Part shown: positions 35,500 to 40,893 of the stretch, piece by piece | Numbering within the stretch: position 1 is the stretch's first letter | How the letters are laid out: every line of letters begins with the position of its first letter | Source: Emticicia oligotrophica DSM 17448 | GTDB taxonomy: Bacteria > Bacteroidota > Bacteroidia > Cytophagales > Spirosomataceae | DNA length: 64,000 nucleotides | Assembly (NCBI RefSeq): GCF_000263195.1 | Contig: NC_018748.1 | Location: forward strand, 2,418,001 to 2,482,000 | Direction of reading: 5' to 3' | Notes under the pieces: model-generated | What the model saw: the letters and a program-made list of their open reading frames with translations, nothing else | Databases searched by the model: none | What the model was told of the DNA's origin: nothing | Program-made: the position numbers and the translations under genes

Positions 35500-36213
35500 A
35501 TGAGTAAAAGGTTTACGGCCTTATTTTTTTCACTGCTGGTGATAGTTAACCTATACTTTACTGTAAAGGTTGAGCCGCATGAACTAAAAACACAAGTAGA
35601 TAAATTATTGGCTTTGTTTCTCTTTCAGTTCGATTACTTCTTATTGTTTGTCTATATTTTTTCTAAATTACTTCGAAATTTTCACAAATCTCTCTTAGTT
35701 CTTGCTGCTTGCTATGCTTGTCTTTTCATTCTTGGAATGGCCTCATTCTATATTACTGATGAAAAACAGTTTGATATTGTTTACTCATATTCGCAGCCAA
35801 TACTTAGGCTACTTTTAATAATAGTTTTCTATTGGATGGGATTGAGGTTCTATTTTTTAAGAGATAAAGTAAGTCTTACTTTTTATGCGATTGCCATGGT
35901 TGAAGGCTTTTATTTACTTTTTCTATTAAATAGGTATCCACGAGCGTTAATGTATTCTTTCAATATCTATTGGCTGGTAGTTTTATTGTTTTTTGTTATT
36001 GGAATTCAAGTAAGAATAAATTTTAAAAATAGAAGGTTATTATTTCTAATAGGTATATTATTTACTTTCACTGCTGATTTATACTACATATTACCTCCCG
36101 AAGAACGTGTTTTTGAGTTTACTTACATCATCATTCGATTAATTAACACCATTGGTGAATTTTTAATTGTCAACCACGTTTTGCGTTACTATAATTCTAT
36201 TTTCAAAAAGTGA
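35500..36213 (+). CDS. Seven-helix membrane protein of unknown function
   Basis: 237 residues, about seven hydrophobic helices with few charged loops (MSKRFTALFFSLLVIVNLYFTVK at the N-terminus, ADLYYILPPEERVFEFTYIIIRLINTIGEFL near the end). Topology and the ADLYY segment faintly recall YhhN/TMEM86 lysoplasmalogenases, but this is not secure. Convergent with the LytTR regulator, 5 bases apart. Confidence 0.65.
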   Translation: MSKRFTALFFSLLVIVNLYFTVKVEPHELKTQVDKLLALFLFQFDYFLLFVYIFSKLLRNFHKSLLVLAACYACLFILGMASFYITDEKQFDIVYSYSQPILRLLLIIVFYWMGLRFYFLRDKVSLTFYAIAMVEGFYLLFLLNRYPRALMYSFNIYWLVVLLFFVIGIQVRINFKNRRLLFLIGILFTFTADLYYILPPEERVFEFTYIIIRLINTIGEFLIVNHVLRYYNSIFKK

Positions 36214-36218
36214 TTTTG

Positions 36219-36911
36219 CTATTTTACCATCCAGATTCGCTTCAAGATTTCCATTAATTCTTCTCGATAATTAGCAGCAATAGGCACAGGGTCATTTCCA
36301 ACCCAAACCTGATGACGCTCAATCTTTTTTACGTGGTTAAGGTTAATAATATAAGATTTATGGACACGGAAGAAATCAGATTTCGGTAACATCTCAATGG
36401 CTTCAGTCATTGTCATTCGAGTAACTGTTTTCTTATCAGATTCTTTAAAAGTGAGATAATTTCCCTCAGATTCAACAAAATGTAAATCATCAATGCTTAC
36501 ACGAACTAAATCGTATCCATCTTTTACAAATAAATAGGGTACTTTGGGCGTTTCATCGTTGGTATTTTCATAAGCTTTTTGACAAGCTTTCATGAATCGA
36601 CTAAAATCAATGGGTTTCAATAGATAATCAAGAGCATTGAGGTTAAAAGCATCAACAGCATACTGCGAATAAGCAGTGGTGAAAATAACTGAAGTATCTT
36701 GTGGAAGTAACTGCGAAAAATCAAGGCCTGTTACATCAGGCATATTAATATCCAAAAATACTAAGTCGATTGGACTTTCTTTTAAATAAGTCAAAGCTTC
36801 AGTTGCACTAACAAAAGTCTCTTTCAAATCAAGGAAAGTAACTTTCTTGGCGTGGGCTTTAATTACTTCCAGAGCCATTGGCTCATCATCTATGGCAATT
36901 GCTTTGAGCAT
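36219..36911 (-). CDS. LytTR-family response regulator
   Basis: 230 residues. Receiver domain with D54 in FLDINMPDVTG and K in LLKPIDF; LytTR DNA-binding domain at about 125-228 (VRVSIDDLHFVESEGNYLTF, FFRVHKSYIINLNHVKKI). LytTR proteins bind direct repeats about 9-10 bp long spaced two turns apart. Such repeats occur upstream of two nearby leftward genes (39219-39249 and 40651-40681). Cotranscribed with the kinase upstream, 15 bases apart. Confidence 0.93.
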   Translation of the reverse strand: MLKAIAIDDEPMALEVIKAHAKKVTFLDLKETFVSATEALTYLKESPIDLVFLDINMPDVTGLDFSQLLPQDTSVIFTTAYSQYAVDAFNLNALDYLLKPIDFSRFMKACQKAYENTNDETPKVPYLFVKDGYDLVRVSIDDLHFVESEGNYLTFKESDKKTVTRMTMTEAIEMLPKSDFFRVHKSYIINLNHVKKIERHQVWVGNDPVPIAANYREELMEILKRIWMVK

Positions 36912-36926
36912 TTTATGAATATGATG

Positions 36927-38075
36927 TTATATTAAATTTACGTCTAAGACTACTTCAAATACATTATTATCATTCGAAATCTTTAAATGATGACGTTGAG
37001 GATAATTAAGTATCAAACGGCGGCGAGTATTTTCTAAACCTGTTGAAGTGCCAATTTCTAATTTATCTACTTGTTTGATAATACTATTTCTGCAAGAAAA
37101 ATGGAGTTGCTGATTTTCAATTTTAAACGAAATATCAATAAAACTTTCTTGGTTAATACTGATTCCAAATTTAAAGGCATTTTCTATGTATGGAATCACC
37201 AGTAAAGGTGCAATTTGGGTGGGTTGTTCGTCGAAATCAATATCAATTTTAATCTTGATATTCTCTCTTTTCGGAATACGCATTTTGTTTAATTCTATAA
37301 AATCATACAAAAATTGCACTTCTTTATCTGCTGTAATTCGCTCGTTTTTTGTGCCTTCAACTACATGTCTCATAATACTCGAAAGCTGCTGAATTCCTTC
37401 GGCGGTTTTGGGACTTTCTTCAACAATGGCGGTGCCATAAAGATTATTGAGTACATTAAACAAAAAGTGTGGGTTTATTTGTGCTTTCAATGCCGAAAGC
37501 TCGACTTTTGTTTTTTGAATGGCCAATTCTCGAATCCTTTTGTGCGATTCTGATACATACTGTATAACTGAATATATCACCGAAAAGCCAATCCATACAT
37601 TGGTAATAAATGAATGTAAGCCAAGTGGTTCGGATTTTACTCCAAAAGAGCTAAGCAAAACAATGAAAATAAAAAAGTAAAAGAAAATAAGTACCACAAA
37701 ATAGAAGAACTTCCCTTTCCTTCCTTCGTCAACAAACAGATTTTTGAATAAGAATTGATAGTTGAATTCGGCGATTAGTATTGAACTCCCAATAAGACTA
37801 AAAAGAAAACTTTGTGAACGTATCAAGGTGGCACCTAGATAGCCTAATTGGTACCATGAAGAATAATTCTTATTATAATTTTTGTTTTGTTTAAACTTTA
37901 GAAAAGTATCTATAAGCTCAGAAAAAGGCTGTTTATAAGTAAAATACCATAGGGTATGAGCAATCGAAAGAGCCGTTAGGATACTCAAGATAATAAGCCA
38001 ATGCCTTTTAAAGAAAGGAATTAAAACTTCTTTCCAGTAGGCTTTATCTAATAAGTTTCCAAACAAAAAATTCAT
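36927..38075 (-). CDS. LytS/YehU-type sensor histidine kinase
   Basis: 382 residues. Four membrane helices (about 25-45, 77-103, 122-143, 155-173), then the His_kinase domain with H203 in ALKAQINPHFLFNVLNNLYG and an ATPase domain (LLVIPYIENAFKFG, GTSTGLENTRRRL). No extra sensor domain; the helices probably sense an envelope or small-molecule signal. First gene of the pair with the LytTR regulator. Confidence 0.92.
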   Translation of the reverse strand: MNFLFGNLLDKAYWKEVLIPFFKRHWLIILSILTALSIAHTLWYFTYKQPFSELIDTFLKFKQNKNYNKNYSSWYQLGYLGATLIRSQSFLFSLIGSSILIAEFNYQFLFKNLFVDEGRKGKFFYFVVLIFFYFFIFIVLLSSFGVKSEPLGLHSFITNVWIGFSVIYSVIQYVSESHKRIRELAIQKTKVELSALKAQINPHFLFNVLNNLYGTAIVEESPKTAEGIQQLSSIMRHVVEGTKNERITADKEVQFLYDFIELNKMRIPKRENIKIKIDIDFDEQPTQIAPLLVIPYIENAFKFGISINQESFIDISFKIENQQLHFSCRNSIIKQVDKLEIGTSTGLENTRRRLILNYPQRHHLKISNDNNVFEVVLDVNLI

Positions 38076-38134
38076 TATGTATTTAATTAGTTCGATGCTT
38101 AAATTTAGTGTTTTCTCCCAATTCTTGCACTTAT

Positions 38135-38500
38135 TTATTTTTTAATTCTACGAAATTTAAAGTAAATCCACCAAGTTATGATGGCAGTAAATGTAAAAAT
38201 AGAGGCCATGAAAGAATCATTCTTTTGGCTGGTGTAGTCAAACCATTTAATGCCCGCTAATAGTAGCCAAATGCCTCCAGAACACAAAAGTGCAGTAGAA
38301 TTTCTTTCGATATTTTCTTTATCTACACCAAAGTTACCAATGGTAATAATAGAACTGATGATTAAAGAAACACAGAAAATATCGATACCGCTAAAACCAA
38401 TGACTGGGTTGACATAATTGATAATGAATATAAAAGAGGTAGTTGCAGCAAGTGTAATAACAAAAAAAATGATTTTATCTTCTTTAGTAGTTGTTTCCAT
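38135..38500 (-). CDS. Small four-helix membrane protein
   Basis: 121 residues, four predicted helices (11-29, 36-54, 68-85, 95-113) and a basic tail KFRRIKK. No known domain. It follows the 38521 gene after 20 bases and probably shares its LytTR-type promoter. Confidence 0.7.
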   Translation of the reverse strand: METTTKEDKIIFFVITLAATTSFIFIINYVNPVIGFSGIDIFCVSLIISSIITIGNFGVDKENIERNSTALLCSGGIWLLLAGIKWFDYTSQKNDSFMASIFTFTAIITWWIYFKFRRIKK

Positions 38501-38520
38501 TTCCTGAAATGAATTAATTA

Positions 38521-39024
38521 TTATACTAATATTACAAGGGTATCCGACGAAGCATTATCTTCTGCTATCGGTTTGAAAATATACCAGCAAATGGCTAATA
38601 GATAGTGCTTTATGGGGTTTTGAATAAGAGCTTCACCAAATGATAATACTGTTTCTGTCATACTTTTTTTACTTACTTTTAAGCCGCATGAAAGGATACA
38701 ATCATCCTCATTTTTAGTAAAAAAGATGATTTCTGCCAATGGATTATTTCTGATTCTAAATTTTATTTTCTGTCCTTTCACTTCCAATGTGCTTAACGAA
38801 CTATACCATTTGTCAGTAGAAGTTCGGGCGATGATAACTTCGTTTTCTTTGATGATAGTATTGGTTGTCCAAATGTTTTCTTGTTCAATCGTAAAAGACT
38901 CAGAAATACTTTGACAAGTAGCTTTTGTTCCTTTCATCGCATAATCAAAGTGCATTTTAAGTAGCACCTCGTCATTGTGCTTCAATTCGTAATTTGTTTC
39001 GGATTTATCCTTCAACCATTTCAT
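38521..39024 (-). CDS. Protein of unknown function under a LytTR-type promoter
   Basis: 167 residues. Mostly beta-rich and soluble (MKWLKDKSETNYELKHNDEVLLKMHFDYAMKG), with a hydrophobic stretch near the C-terminus (KHYLLAICWYIFKPI). It looks like a lipid-scramblase/Tubby-like beta sandwich in pattern, but no motif proves it. First gene of a two-gene unit; the promoter at 39184-39191 is preceded by paired repeats. Confidence 0.7.
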   Translation of the reverse strand: MKWLKDKSETNYELKHNDEVLLKMHFDYAMKGTKATCQSISESFTIEQENIWTTNTIIKENEVIIARTSTDKWYSSLSTLEVKGQKIKFRIRNNPLAEIIFFTKNEDDCILSCGLKVSKKSMTETVLSFGEALIQNPIKHYLLAICWYIFKPIAEDNASSDTLVILV

Positions 39025-39183
39025 AAGTGTTTTATTAGTTTAAATGAATTATTGGTTTGTGTTTGCTGGAAAGAAACAACATTGAAAGAAACCACTACTG
39101 ACACTATGAAGAAGTAAAGTTTTGTTTTCATAAATGTAGGCGAAAAACGCTGTTTCTGATACTTTGTTTCTGTTTGACCGATT

Positions 39184-39249
39184 CAAAAGTATAAGAATGT
39201 AAAATGCTATGAAAACAGATGTGATGAACTGTAAAAAGTATGTGATGAA
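39184..39249 (-). promoter_or_regulatory. Promoter with LytTR-like direct repeats, site 1
   Basis: The minus strand reads TACTTTTG (39191-39184) as -7 box. Upstream, ATGTGATGAA (plus strand) occurs twice, at 39219-39228 and 39240-39249, identical and 21 bp apart. The near repeat starts 28 bases from the -7 box edge, an activator position at about -42 to -72. No good -33 TTG is present, as expected for an activated promoter. Confidence 0.65.
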
Positions 39250-39271
39250 ATCTTTGAATGGTGTGAATACT

Positions 39272-40102
39272 CTACAAGAATTCGATATTCCTTTCGCTAT
39301 CGTTTTTTTGCCAAATAATCTCTAAAGTATGTTTTTTGATTAAGTATAAACCACCTAAGATGGATATAATAGCGATTAAAAGTCCCATGTAATAGACCGA
39401 TTCATTGCCAATTAGATATAAACGAATATAGTTTTTGGTTGGCACGTCATGATTTATCTTATACTTAAAAATATCTTCTAATACCGAAAAACTCAGGGTC
39501 ATGAGTAGTGGTAGCTGAAAAGCGGCTGTTCGGTAATAAATATAAAACATGATGAGGGTTTGAATAAATAAGCCAATAACAGCTTGTGGCACAACCATTA
39601 CGATACTGACGGCTGCTACGGTGAAAATAACCTGTTTGAAAAGGTAGTTGGTAAGCAAACCATGCCCAATAACACCAATTTGCAAAGTTGTGAACATTAA
39701 AGCCGAAATGGCACCTAAGATAAAACTTGGCCCTAAATTCTGTATGTTTTTACTTTCTACTTCATTAAAAGGTAAAAAATCAACCACAATTGGGTGTATA
39801 TAAGCCCACGCAAAGGCAATAACCAAAGAAATTACATAAACGATAGGTGAAACTCTTTGAAAAGCAGGTAATTGTTTTTTGTTTATGAAAAAACCAATCA
39901 GTGACGAAATTAGAAGAATCAAAATAAGGAGACCAAATACCCAGTCGTTGATAACTTGTTCGATATTTTTATTTTGAAGAGCTGCTAATGCTCCGAATAT
40001 TCCCGCTCCAAGAAAAAAAACGATAATACACGTCACCATCATCATCCAGGCTTTGGCAATTGTCATGCCTGTCTTTTTTTGTAAAAATTGCCAATCTTCC
40101 AT
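39272..40102 (-). CDS. Polytopic membrane protein of unknown function
   Basis: 276 residues from the ATG at 40102; the frame extends to a TTG at 40183, but that overlaps the promoter and is rejected. About eight helices with a hydrophilic stretch FLPFNEVESKNIQNLGPSF. No family recognised. Own promoter (40153-40183) without LytTR-like repeats. Confidence 0.75.
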   Translation of the reverse strand: MEDWQFLQKKTGMTIAKAWMMMVTCIIVFFLGAGIFGALAALQNKNIEQVINDWVFGLLILILLISSLIGFFINKKQLPAFQRVSPIVYVISLVIAFAWAYIHPIVVDFLPFNEVESKNIQNLGPSFILGAISALMFTTLQIGVIGHGLLTNYLFKQVIFTVAAVSIVMVVPQAVIGLFIQTLIMFYIYYRTAAFQLPLLMTLSFSVLEDIFKYKINHDVPTKNYIRLYLIGNESVYYMGLLIAIISILGGLYLIKKHTLEIIWQKNDSERNIEFL

Positions 40103-40152
40103 AAATAATAACGATAAGTTATAGGTAATAGGTTTTTTTGTGTGATTTATGC

Positions 40153-40183
40153 CAAAGTTAAAATAAGTAGCTATAGAAAACAA
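40153..40183 (-). promoter_or_regulatory. Promoter of the 39272-40102 gene
   Basis: Minus strand TTG (40183-40181), 20 bases, TAACTTTG (40160-40153). Both elements near consensus. Confidence 0.65.
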
Positions 40184-40185
40184 AA

Positions 40186-40211
40186 AGCCCCTTACTAAAA
40201 TGTAAGGGACT
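40186..40211 (-). terminator. Terminator after the 96-residue membrane protein gene
   Basis: A stem of GTAAGGG/CCCTTAC with outer pairs, then U-rich sequence on the minus strand, 19 bases after the stop at 40230. It insulates the next promoter. Confidence 0.75.
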
Positions 40212-40229
40212 GTGTAGGTTTAGTAGAAT

Positions 40230-40520
40230 TTATAAAAGTTTATTAAGAAATGCTATTAGATGAATGCTACCCAAAAAACTCCACAAAATAACGACCATTT
40301 TGTGCAGCGATTCTTTGTAATTATGTGGTTTGGTTAGCTTAGTTTGTATCAAACTAAAATGAAAGGTGAGGGTAAGCATCCATTCGAATATGCTTTTTGT
40401 TAGGTAATAAAATGCTCCTTCATATTGCATTATAAATTGTAAGTAAAGGTGGCTTCCGAAGAAGAATAGCATTAAAATACCCGCAATATTTTGATATATT
40501 TTAAGTGTTTTGAGTTTCAT
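40230..40520 (-). CDS. Small three-helix membrane protein
   Basis: 96 residues, about three helices (12-31, 38-57, 75-93). No known domain. Single-gene transcript with its own terminator and a promoter carrying LytTR-like repeats, so it is a likely target of the LytS/LytTR pair nearby. Confidence 0.7.
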   Translation of the reverse strand: MKLKTLKIYQNIAGILMLFFFGSHLYLQFIMQYEGAFYYLTKSIFEWMLTLTFHFSLIQTKLTKPHNYKESLHKMVVILWSFLGSIHLIAFLNKLL

Positions 40521-40893
40521 TATTCAAATGTGAGTATAAATCACTCAGGTATTTTATTCTCAATGGTTTAGTTGAACTTTTATTAAAAGTAATAGCTTTT
40601 TGCGTTTTCACGATTTAAAAATATGCCTACCTAAGAAATTCACAAAGTAGATGTGATGAACTTTGGAAGCTATGTGACCAATGAATGAAAGTTTGGGATT
40701 TGCTTTGGCATAATAATTGGCATTTATTTGTGTAAGAAAACAAAAATTACTTTAAAAACTGACTTTTGTTTAAAAGTATTTTCAGCGTTTTACGTTAAAA
40801 AAAATAGTACTTTTATAAAACTAATTAGTAATAATTTAAAACCGTTGACTGTCGTGTAAAACGCTGCTCACGCTCAACTGTTGACTATAAAAT
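40521..40893. other. Divergent intergenic region
   Basis: 373 bases. It contains LytTR-like site 2 and, next to the BatA-like gene, a hairpin-prone segment (GTTGACTG at 40843 onward and the related CAACTGTTGAC near 40878). No gene is supported. Confidence 0.5.
40616..40681 (-). promoter_or_regulatory. Promoter with LytTR-like direct repeats, site 2
   Basis: ATGTGATGAA (40651-40660) and ATGTGACCAA (40672-40681) are 21 bp apart, as at site 1. The minus-strand -7-like box TATTTTTA (40623-40616) lies at the same 28-base distance as at site 1. The flanking bases AG before and CT after the near repeat are shared too. Confidence 0.6.

Follow-up and report, generated by a model that had tools for sequence, protein, structure and literature searches.

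Next to a LytS-type histidine kinase and its LytTR response regulator, the chromosome of Emticicia oligotrophica DSM 17448 carries two operator-promoter sites, each with three repeats in a 21-bp register upstream of a −7 box, and this element accompanies the same regulator clade across genera. We consider it likely that the locus is a self-amplifying LytS/LytTR module with two operators, in which a pseudoprotease serves as a modulator of the kinase. Coordinates refer to the window, the 64,000-nucleotide stretch that was analyzed. All genes of the locus lie on the minus strand, and its features are given below in the order in which they are read.

40612..40702, minus: site 2 operator-promoter, three 21-bp-phased repeats (40693-40702, 40672-40681, 40651-40660) and a −7 box, TATTTTTA (40623-40616); genome-wide E 3.4e-13, matrix score 35.7 bits
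40230..40520, minus: small membrane protein of 96 aa, encoded behind site 2
40186..40211, minus: terminator-like hairpin 3' of the 96-aa gene, fold z −3.36
40153..40184, minus: promoter-like sequence TTTG-N20-TAACTTTG, preceding the 276-aa gene
39272..40102, minus: polytopic membrane protein of 276 aa that has lost the catalytic motifs of its probable CPBP/Rce1-like fold
39180..39270, minus: site 1 operator-promoter, three 21-bp-phased repeats (39261-39270, 39240-39249, 39219-39228) and a −7 box, TACTTTTG (39191-39184); genome-wide E 8.1e-16, matrix score 57.6 bits
39021..39131, minus: 36-aa signal-peptide-like ORF (MKTKLYFF...), the first one behind site 1, its stop overlapping the next ATG (ATGA)
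38521..39024, minus: 167-aa protein, by prediction rich in beta structure, with a helix at the C-terminus
38135..38500, minus: 121-aa small membrane protein, about three hydrophobic segments in L031-L033
36927..38075, minus: LytS-type sensor histidine kinase, PF06580 E 3.6e-21, membrane-spanning N-terminus
36219..36911, minus: LytTR response regulator, PF00072 E 1.7e-19 and PF04397 E 1e-18

Architecture of the two operator-promoter sites

The initial annotation had described 10-bp direct repeats 21 bp apart at two promoters, each starting 28 bases from a −7 box, and the coordinates bear out both the repeats and the boxes. At site 1, ATGTGATGAA occurs at 39219-39228 and again, at a spacing of 21 bp, at 39240-39249; at site 2, the copy at 40651-40660 is matched imperfectly by ATGTGACCAA at 40672-40681. 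The distance from the first repeat to the −7 box is 28 bases at both sites (the −7 consensus was taken from PMC7366714). A third, weaker repeat stands in the same 21-bp register at each site (GTATTCACAC on the minus strand at 39261-39270, and CAAATCCCAA at 40693-40702). Just past the proximal repeat comes a −33 region that is T-rich and has no clear TTTG. LytTR operators, as described in PMC6193735, match the arrangement found here in 21-bp phasing and placement upstream of −33. The LytTR-binding layout proposed at the outset therefore stands as to direct repeats, phasing, placement upstream of −33 and conservation with the genes, but it comprises three repeats rather than two. Together, these features support both sites as candidate LytTR-type operators.

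The genome scan proposed in the initial annotation, for ATGTGATGAA-N11-ATGTGA without mismatch, returned site 1 and site 2 only in the 5.22-Mb genome. In the window, the loose pattern with up to 3 mismatches gave 3 matches against 1.12 expected, and 8 of 100 shuffles reached 3, which is not significant alone. The significance of the repeats rests on cross-genus conservation.

Conservation of the operator in relatives

Regulator relatives were taken from the best 80 loci (L031-L110), of which 24 (L031-L054) were scanned first. The regulator is 86-89% identical to those of the six loci L031-L036; L031, L034, L035 and L036 are Emticicia, and L032 and L033 are Cytophagaceae MAGs. Upstream of cassette genes in the 24 loci, the repeat pair recurs and the third copy is mostly present. 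A −7 box of the form TnnnTTTGA lies 37 nt past the start of the proximal repeat in 21 of 41 lines and at 36 nt in 4; the rest comprise 11 lines without a box of this form and 5 register-shifted doubles or misses. Twenty-four operator sites align gap-free across 91 columns; they were chosen by hand, without the sites at 36 nt, the weaker ones and near-duplicates such as L040:4518, and in four of them (window site 2, L031:4493, L032:4501 and L036:4484) a departing −7 box was placed by eye. In the 24 loci, the coding strand carried 42 pairs of the core TC[AC]CA at spacing 21 and the opposite strand none; in the other 56, the counts were 19 and 2, respectively. The stricter core TCACA gave 19 versus 0 and 10 versus 0, and the loosest, T[CT][AC]CA, gave 46 versus 4 in the 24 loci and no preference for spacing 21 in the 56, where spacings 21 and 26 each yielded 25. 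The repeats are thus conserved alongside the LytS/LytTR genes, the opposite of the pattern (genes kept, repeats absent) that would speak against the initial proposal.

Model R1, a sequence-only description of the operator that drew on many close loci, scored only the two window sites strongly in this genome (E 8.1e-16 and 3.4e-13; the match after these had E 0.005), with 150 of 6067 first-look candidates scored. Across 81 sources it returned 91 matches at E ≤10, and every one at E ≤0.01 was on the coding strand. It reached at least 40 bits in 20 of the 21 close loci with sufficient upstream DNA (the exception is L054; the contigs of L035, L041 and L047 end too soon) and E ≤0.01 in 20 of 55 more distant loci (L066, on too short a contig, was left out; those retained have at least 1.85 kb upstream, the length in L091). 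Since R1 was trained on many close loci, the clean tests are an independent matrix, a strand comparison in distant loci and a LytTR-blind scan. The matrix, made without the window and L031-L036, ranked the window sites first and second (57.6 and 35.7 bits; next, 4.8); its 14 training sites include L037, from an Emticicia sp. whose regulator is 74% identical. Of the 55 distant loci, which had no part in training, 51 scored higher on the coding strand than on the other (p = 4e-10). Finally, the LytTR-blind scan found the element at E ≤0.001 in 33 of 101 family genomes (a set that overlaps the sources of L031-L054 for several genomes) and 15 of 36 genera, and cassette-type genes lay within 1.5 kb of it in 20 of 29 fetched loci and were absent in 9. 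At the level of sequence, these comparisons establish the predicted operator, its rigid geometry, its link to the regulator clade and the gene order.

Genes behind the two sites

The initial annotation had counted three proteins as targets, but the row behind site 1 also includes the 36-aa ORF, the kinase and the regulator, and the gene order and spacing suggest co-transcription from site 1 through the kinase to the regulator. The kinase retains an intact NPHFLFN box, a visible NAFKFG and a hydrophobic N-terminus. A regulator with receiver and LytTR domains, a PF06580 membrane kinase and direct repeats of about 21 bp upstream of promoters are all present, as in LytS/LytTR systems, and the regulator presumably binds both sites. 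No family was found for the 167-aa or the 121-aa protein. Comparison by eye with L031 4019-4297 suggests that the 36-aa ORF is perhaps a remnant of the small lipoprotein found at the same place in relatives; it has no lipobox Cys.

The larger membrane protein (39272-40102), counted among the targets at the outset, is set apart from site 2 by a hairpin and by a promoter-like sequence of its own, as in L031-L033. The hairpin with its run of T's and the promoter-like sequence were seen by eye at the same place in these three loci. In the window, the terminator scan gave 4 terminator-like sites against 2.6 expected. The promoter pattern is not rare there either (7 found versus 5.4 expected), so its support comes from its conserved place in L031-L033. 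With the hairpin and second promoter-like sequence in between, the main target of site 2 is probably the 96-aa gene. Among the matches listed for 30 of the 80 loci, intact copies of this gene were seen in four (window, L031, L033 and L034), each behind such an operator. In L032, the gene is by eye a remnant and the operator is shortened (model positions 2-66), and the two seem to have decayed together.

Across 34 surveyed sites, the first gene encodes a small lipobox protein in 12, an 82-150 aa MRYLTL... family member in 9, the 96-aa family in 4, a CPBP-like protein in 2, a kinase in 1 and others in 6 (including L051, although a lipoprotein ORF is visible there). In places (L189, L191), a CPBP-like gene and then the kinase come after a lipobox first gene. 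In many distant loci, a long kinase gene lies no more than about 0.2 kb from the operator, which in several distant families stands just upstream of the kinase; in others, the operator precedes other genes. Out-of-cluster sites precede small secreted proteins, at about 50 nt (L182, L183) or 0.5 kb (L184-L186); of two such proteins scanned, one had a secretion tail above the Pfam cut-off and both had DUF3244 below it. These targets point to the envelope and suggest an envelope-related signal.

A candidate pseudoprotease

The 276-aa protein has the characteristics of the CPBP membrane fold, and we regard a CPBP/Rce1-like fold as probable, with moderate support. No PF02517 match was listed at E ≤10 for ten members, in a search where HMMER's filtering discards most weak matches; this family is matched elsewhere in the cassettes (L042, E 2.1e-9; L049 5816-6655, E 2.1e-22). 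None of the 10 aligned proteins of Emticicia/Lacihabitans type has the EExxxR or FxxxH motif (8 of them were compared with two intact CPBPs), and 3 of 8 members of the other CPBP type retain both. The protein is thus probably a catalytically dead pseudoprotease like SpdC. In L042 and L044, the operator is immediately followed by the CPBP-like gene, which in the window and L031-L033 has its own promoter-like sequence behind a hairpin.

Proposed mechanism and alternatives

In the proposed mechanism, the membrane kinase (36927-38075) would phosphorylate the LytTR regulator (36219-36911), molecules of which would occupy the head-to-tail repeats two helical turns apart, and the occupied repeats, just upstream of −33, would activate two sigma-ABfr-type promoters. 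The products driven by site 1 would then be the leader ORF, which is of a small secreted or lipoprotein type, the 167-aa protein and the 121-aa protein, together with the kinase and regulator themselves, so that the system would activate its own expression (positive autoregulation). Site 2 would drive the 96-aa membrane protein. The 276-aa, probably dead CPBP-fold protein, expressed from its own promoter, would most likely act on the membrane part of the kinase, by analogy to SpdC and Abx1. We infer binding, activation over repression and the contact between kinase and pseudoprotease: recognition of the operator by this regulator appears very probable and activation of the promoters nearly as much so, and the contact, proposed by analogy, is tentative, at somewhat less than an even chance.

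A chance origin of the repeats, or one in AT-rich sequence of no regulatory significance, might be allowed by the loose pattern in the window but is exceedingly improbable given the gap-free alignment, the genome-wide E values, the strand bias, the LytTR-blind scan and the cross-genus matrix. The operator could be real and yet be read mainly by another regulator, such as the nearest LytTR paralogue, C5:3146827, or a CRP-like protein, leaving the local pair as a neighbor or one input. The genome has 34 LytTR matches, and ATGTGA, with its TGTGA core, resembles a CRP half-site. Among 30 fetched loci compared, the nearest paralogue is 47% identical to the regulator, and upstream of its kinase (L199) lies a related repeat, one good copy with a degenerate second (E 1.67); since 37 R1 matches are listed in this genome, one near a LytTR gene would be unsurprising by chance, and this repeat is suggestive only. 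However, the repeats are direct, phased by 21 bp and on one strand, the element tracks this regulator clade across genera and stands just upstream of the kinase in several distant families, and strong sites in this genome occur at this locus only, so control by another regulator is improbable.

Instead of activating, the bound regulator could repress both promoters until a signal releases them; in one streptococcal system, a small LytTR protein is reported to repress LytTR-activated genes through the same motif. Nevertheless, the proximal repeat sits just upstream of a T-rich −33 without clear TTTG, as would be expected for activated promoters, a like geometry activates in LRS according to PMC6193735, and the nearly fixed face and spacing suggest polymerase contact, making repression unlikely. 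In an Agr/Sil-like loop, a signal precursor (the lipoprotein or the leader ORF) would be matured or sensed by the CPBP protein and detected by the kinase. Such a loop would fit the small lipobox first genes at 12 of 34 sites, in places followed by CPBP-like and kinase genes, and a parallel in Streptococcus anginosus, where a CAAX protease (SilX) is linked to quorum sensing of the LytTR type. This loop is unlikely, since the catalytic residues are missing in 10 of 10 Emticicia/Lacihabitans-type members, with both motifs persisting in 3 of 8 of the other type, and the leader ORF in the window has no lipobox Cys. More speculatively, and with rather low probability, lipoprotein, CPBP protein and LytS/LytTR may form one unnamed Bacteroidota circuit tied together by a single triple-repeat operator, in which an ancestral CPBP protease processed or sensed the lipoprotein, repeatedly lost catalysis and came to gate the kinase.

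For the preferred reading, a self-amplifying LytS/LytTR module, an operator of nearly fixed promoter geometry would make targets predictable genome by genome and provide a ready reporter. The series of intact, eroded and dead CPBP proteins beside one regulator would offer a test of the change from protease to kinase regulator.

Comparison with known systems

No report of a LytTR operator in Bacteroidota was found among open-literature titles and abstract openings, which is weak evidence as subscription journals are mostly uncovered, and five Bacteroidota names sought in the main text of PMC6193735 were absent from it. The label of an undescribed signalling system is fair for the proteins, but the control logic is of a known LytTR kind. 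With LytS/LytTR systems of the AgrA/BlpR/PlnC/BtsR type, the locus shares a regulator with receiver and LytTR domains, a PF06580-type kinase (as LytS/BtsS) and direct repeats of about 21 bp by the promoter; it differs in having three repeats rather than two, a TTCATC[AC]CA core, a sigma-ABfr-type promoter at a nearly fixed 37-nt geometry and other target genes. The LRS (HdrRM/BrsRM) likewise have direct repeats upstream of their own operon and small membrane proteins within it, but in them a membrane inhibitor is the partner of the LytTR regulator; we rejected membership because here the partner is a histidine kinase and the regulator includes a receiver domain. The Sil/gallocin (BlpHR) quorum-sensing regulons likewise have a LytTR regulator, a shared promoter motif and CAAX/Abi-domain proteins, whereas the present locus is without a recognized bacteriocin or pheromone gene and its CPBP-like protein is without catalytic motifs. 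Finally, SpdC-WalKR and Abx1-CovS, in which CPBP/Abi-domain proteins regulate histidine kinases, share the CPBP fold (probable here) and a functional link with a two-component system; SpdC has also lost its catalytic motifs, as has the 276-aa protein, and its gene is controlled by the two-component system that it modulates. In contrast to both, the protein described here is from Bacteroidota and is encoded inside the kinase's own cluster, and its contact with the kinase is predicted by analogy.

Further features of the window

window 40147-40136, minus strand: lone TCACAC half-site AATCACACAAAA, directly past the -7-like box in the separate promoter of the 276-aa gene
window 35500-36213, plus strand: 237-aa polytopic membrane protein, tail to tail with the regulator gene

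The TCACAC half-site was present at this place past the -7-like box in all four sequences (the window and the related loci L031, L032 and L033), and it could serve as an extra regulator contact. The 237-aa membrane protein, for which Pfam and NCBIfam gave no match, is retained in L031 at 61% identity.

Variation among related cassettes

In L033 (6348-6979), the kinase and regulator genes are separated by two inserted small ORFs of 72 and 138 aa that, by eye, look like a toxin-antitoxin pair. The CPBP-like gene of Jiulongibacter is broken into two overlapping frames (L046:4571-5343), and Fibrisoma limi (L053:6367-7672) keeps the lipoprotein and regulator with no kinase between them.

Operator copies elsewhere

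Secreted protein families of 129-142 aa, mostly in tandem, lie close to out-of-cluster operator copies:
L182:5507-7021
L183:4684-5659
L184:4257-5202
L185:4186-4578
L186:5819-6859

Behind a weak operator copy, L195 (5812-10724) contains a PF00144 beta-lactamase family gene and an apparent ABC transporter, along with a long gene similar to the Pontibacter-type kinase.
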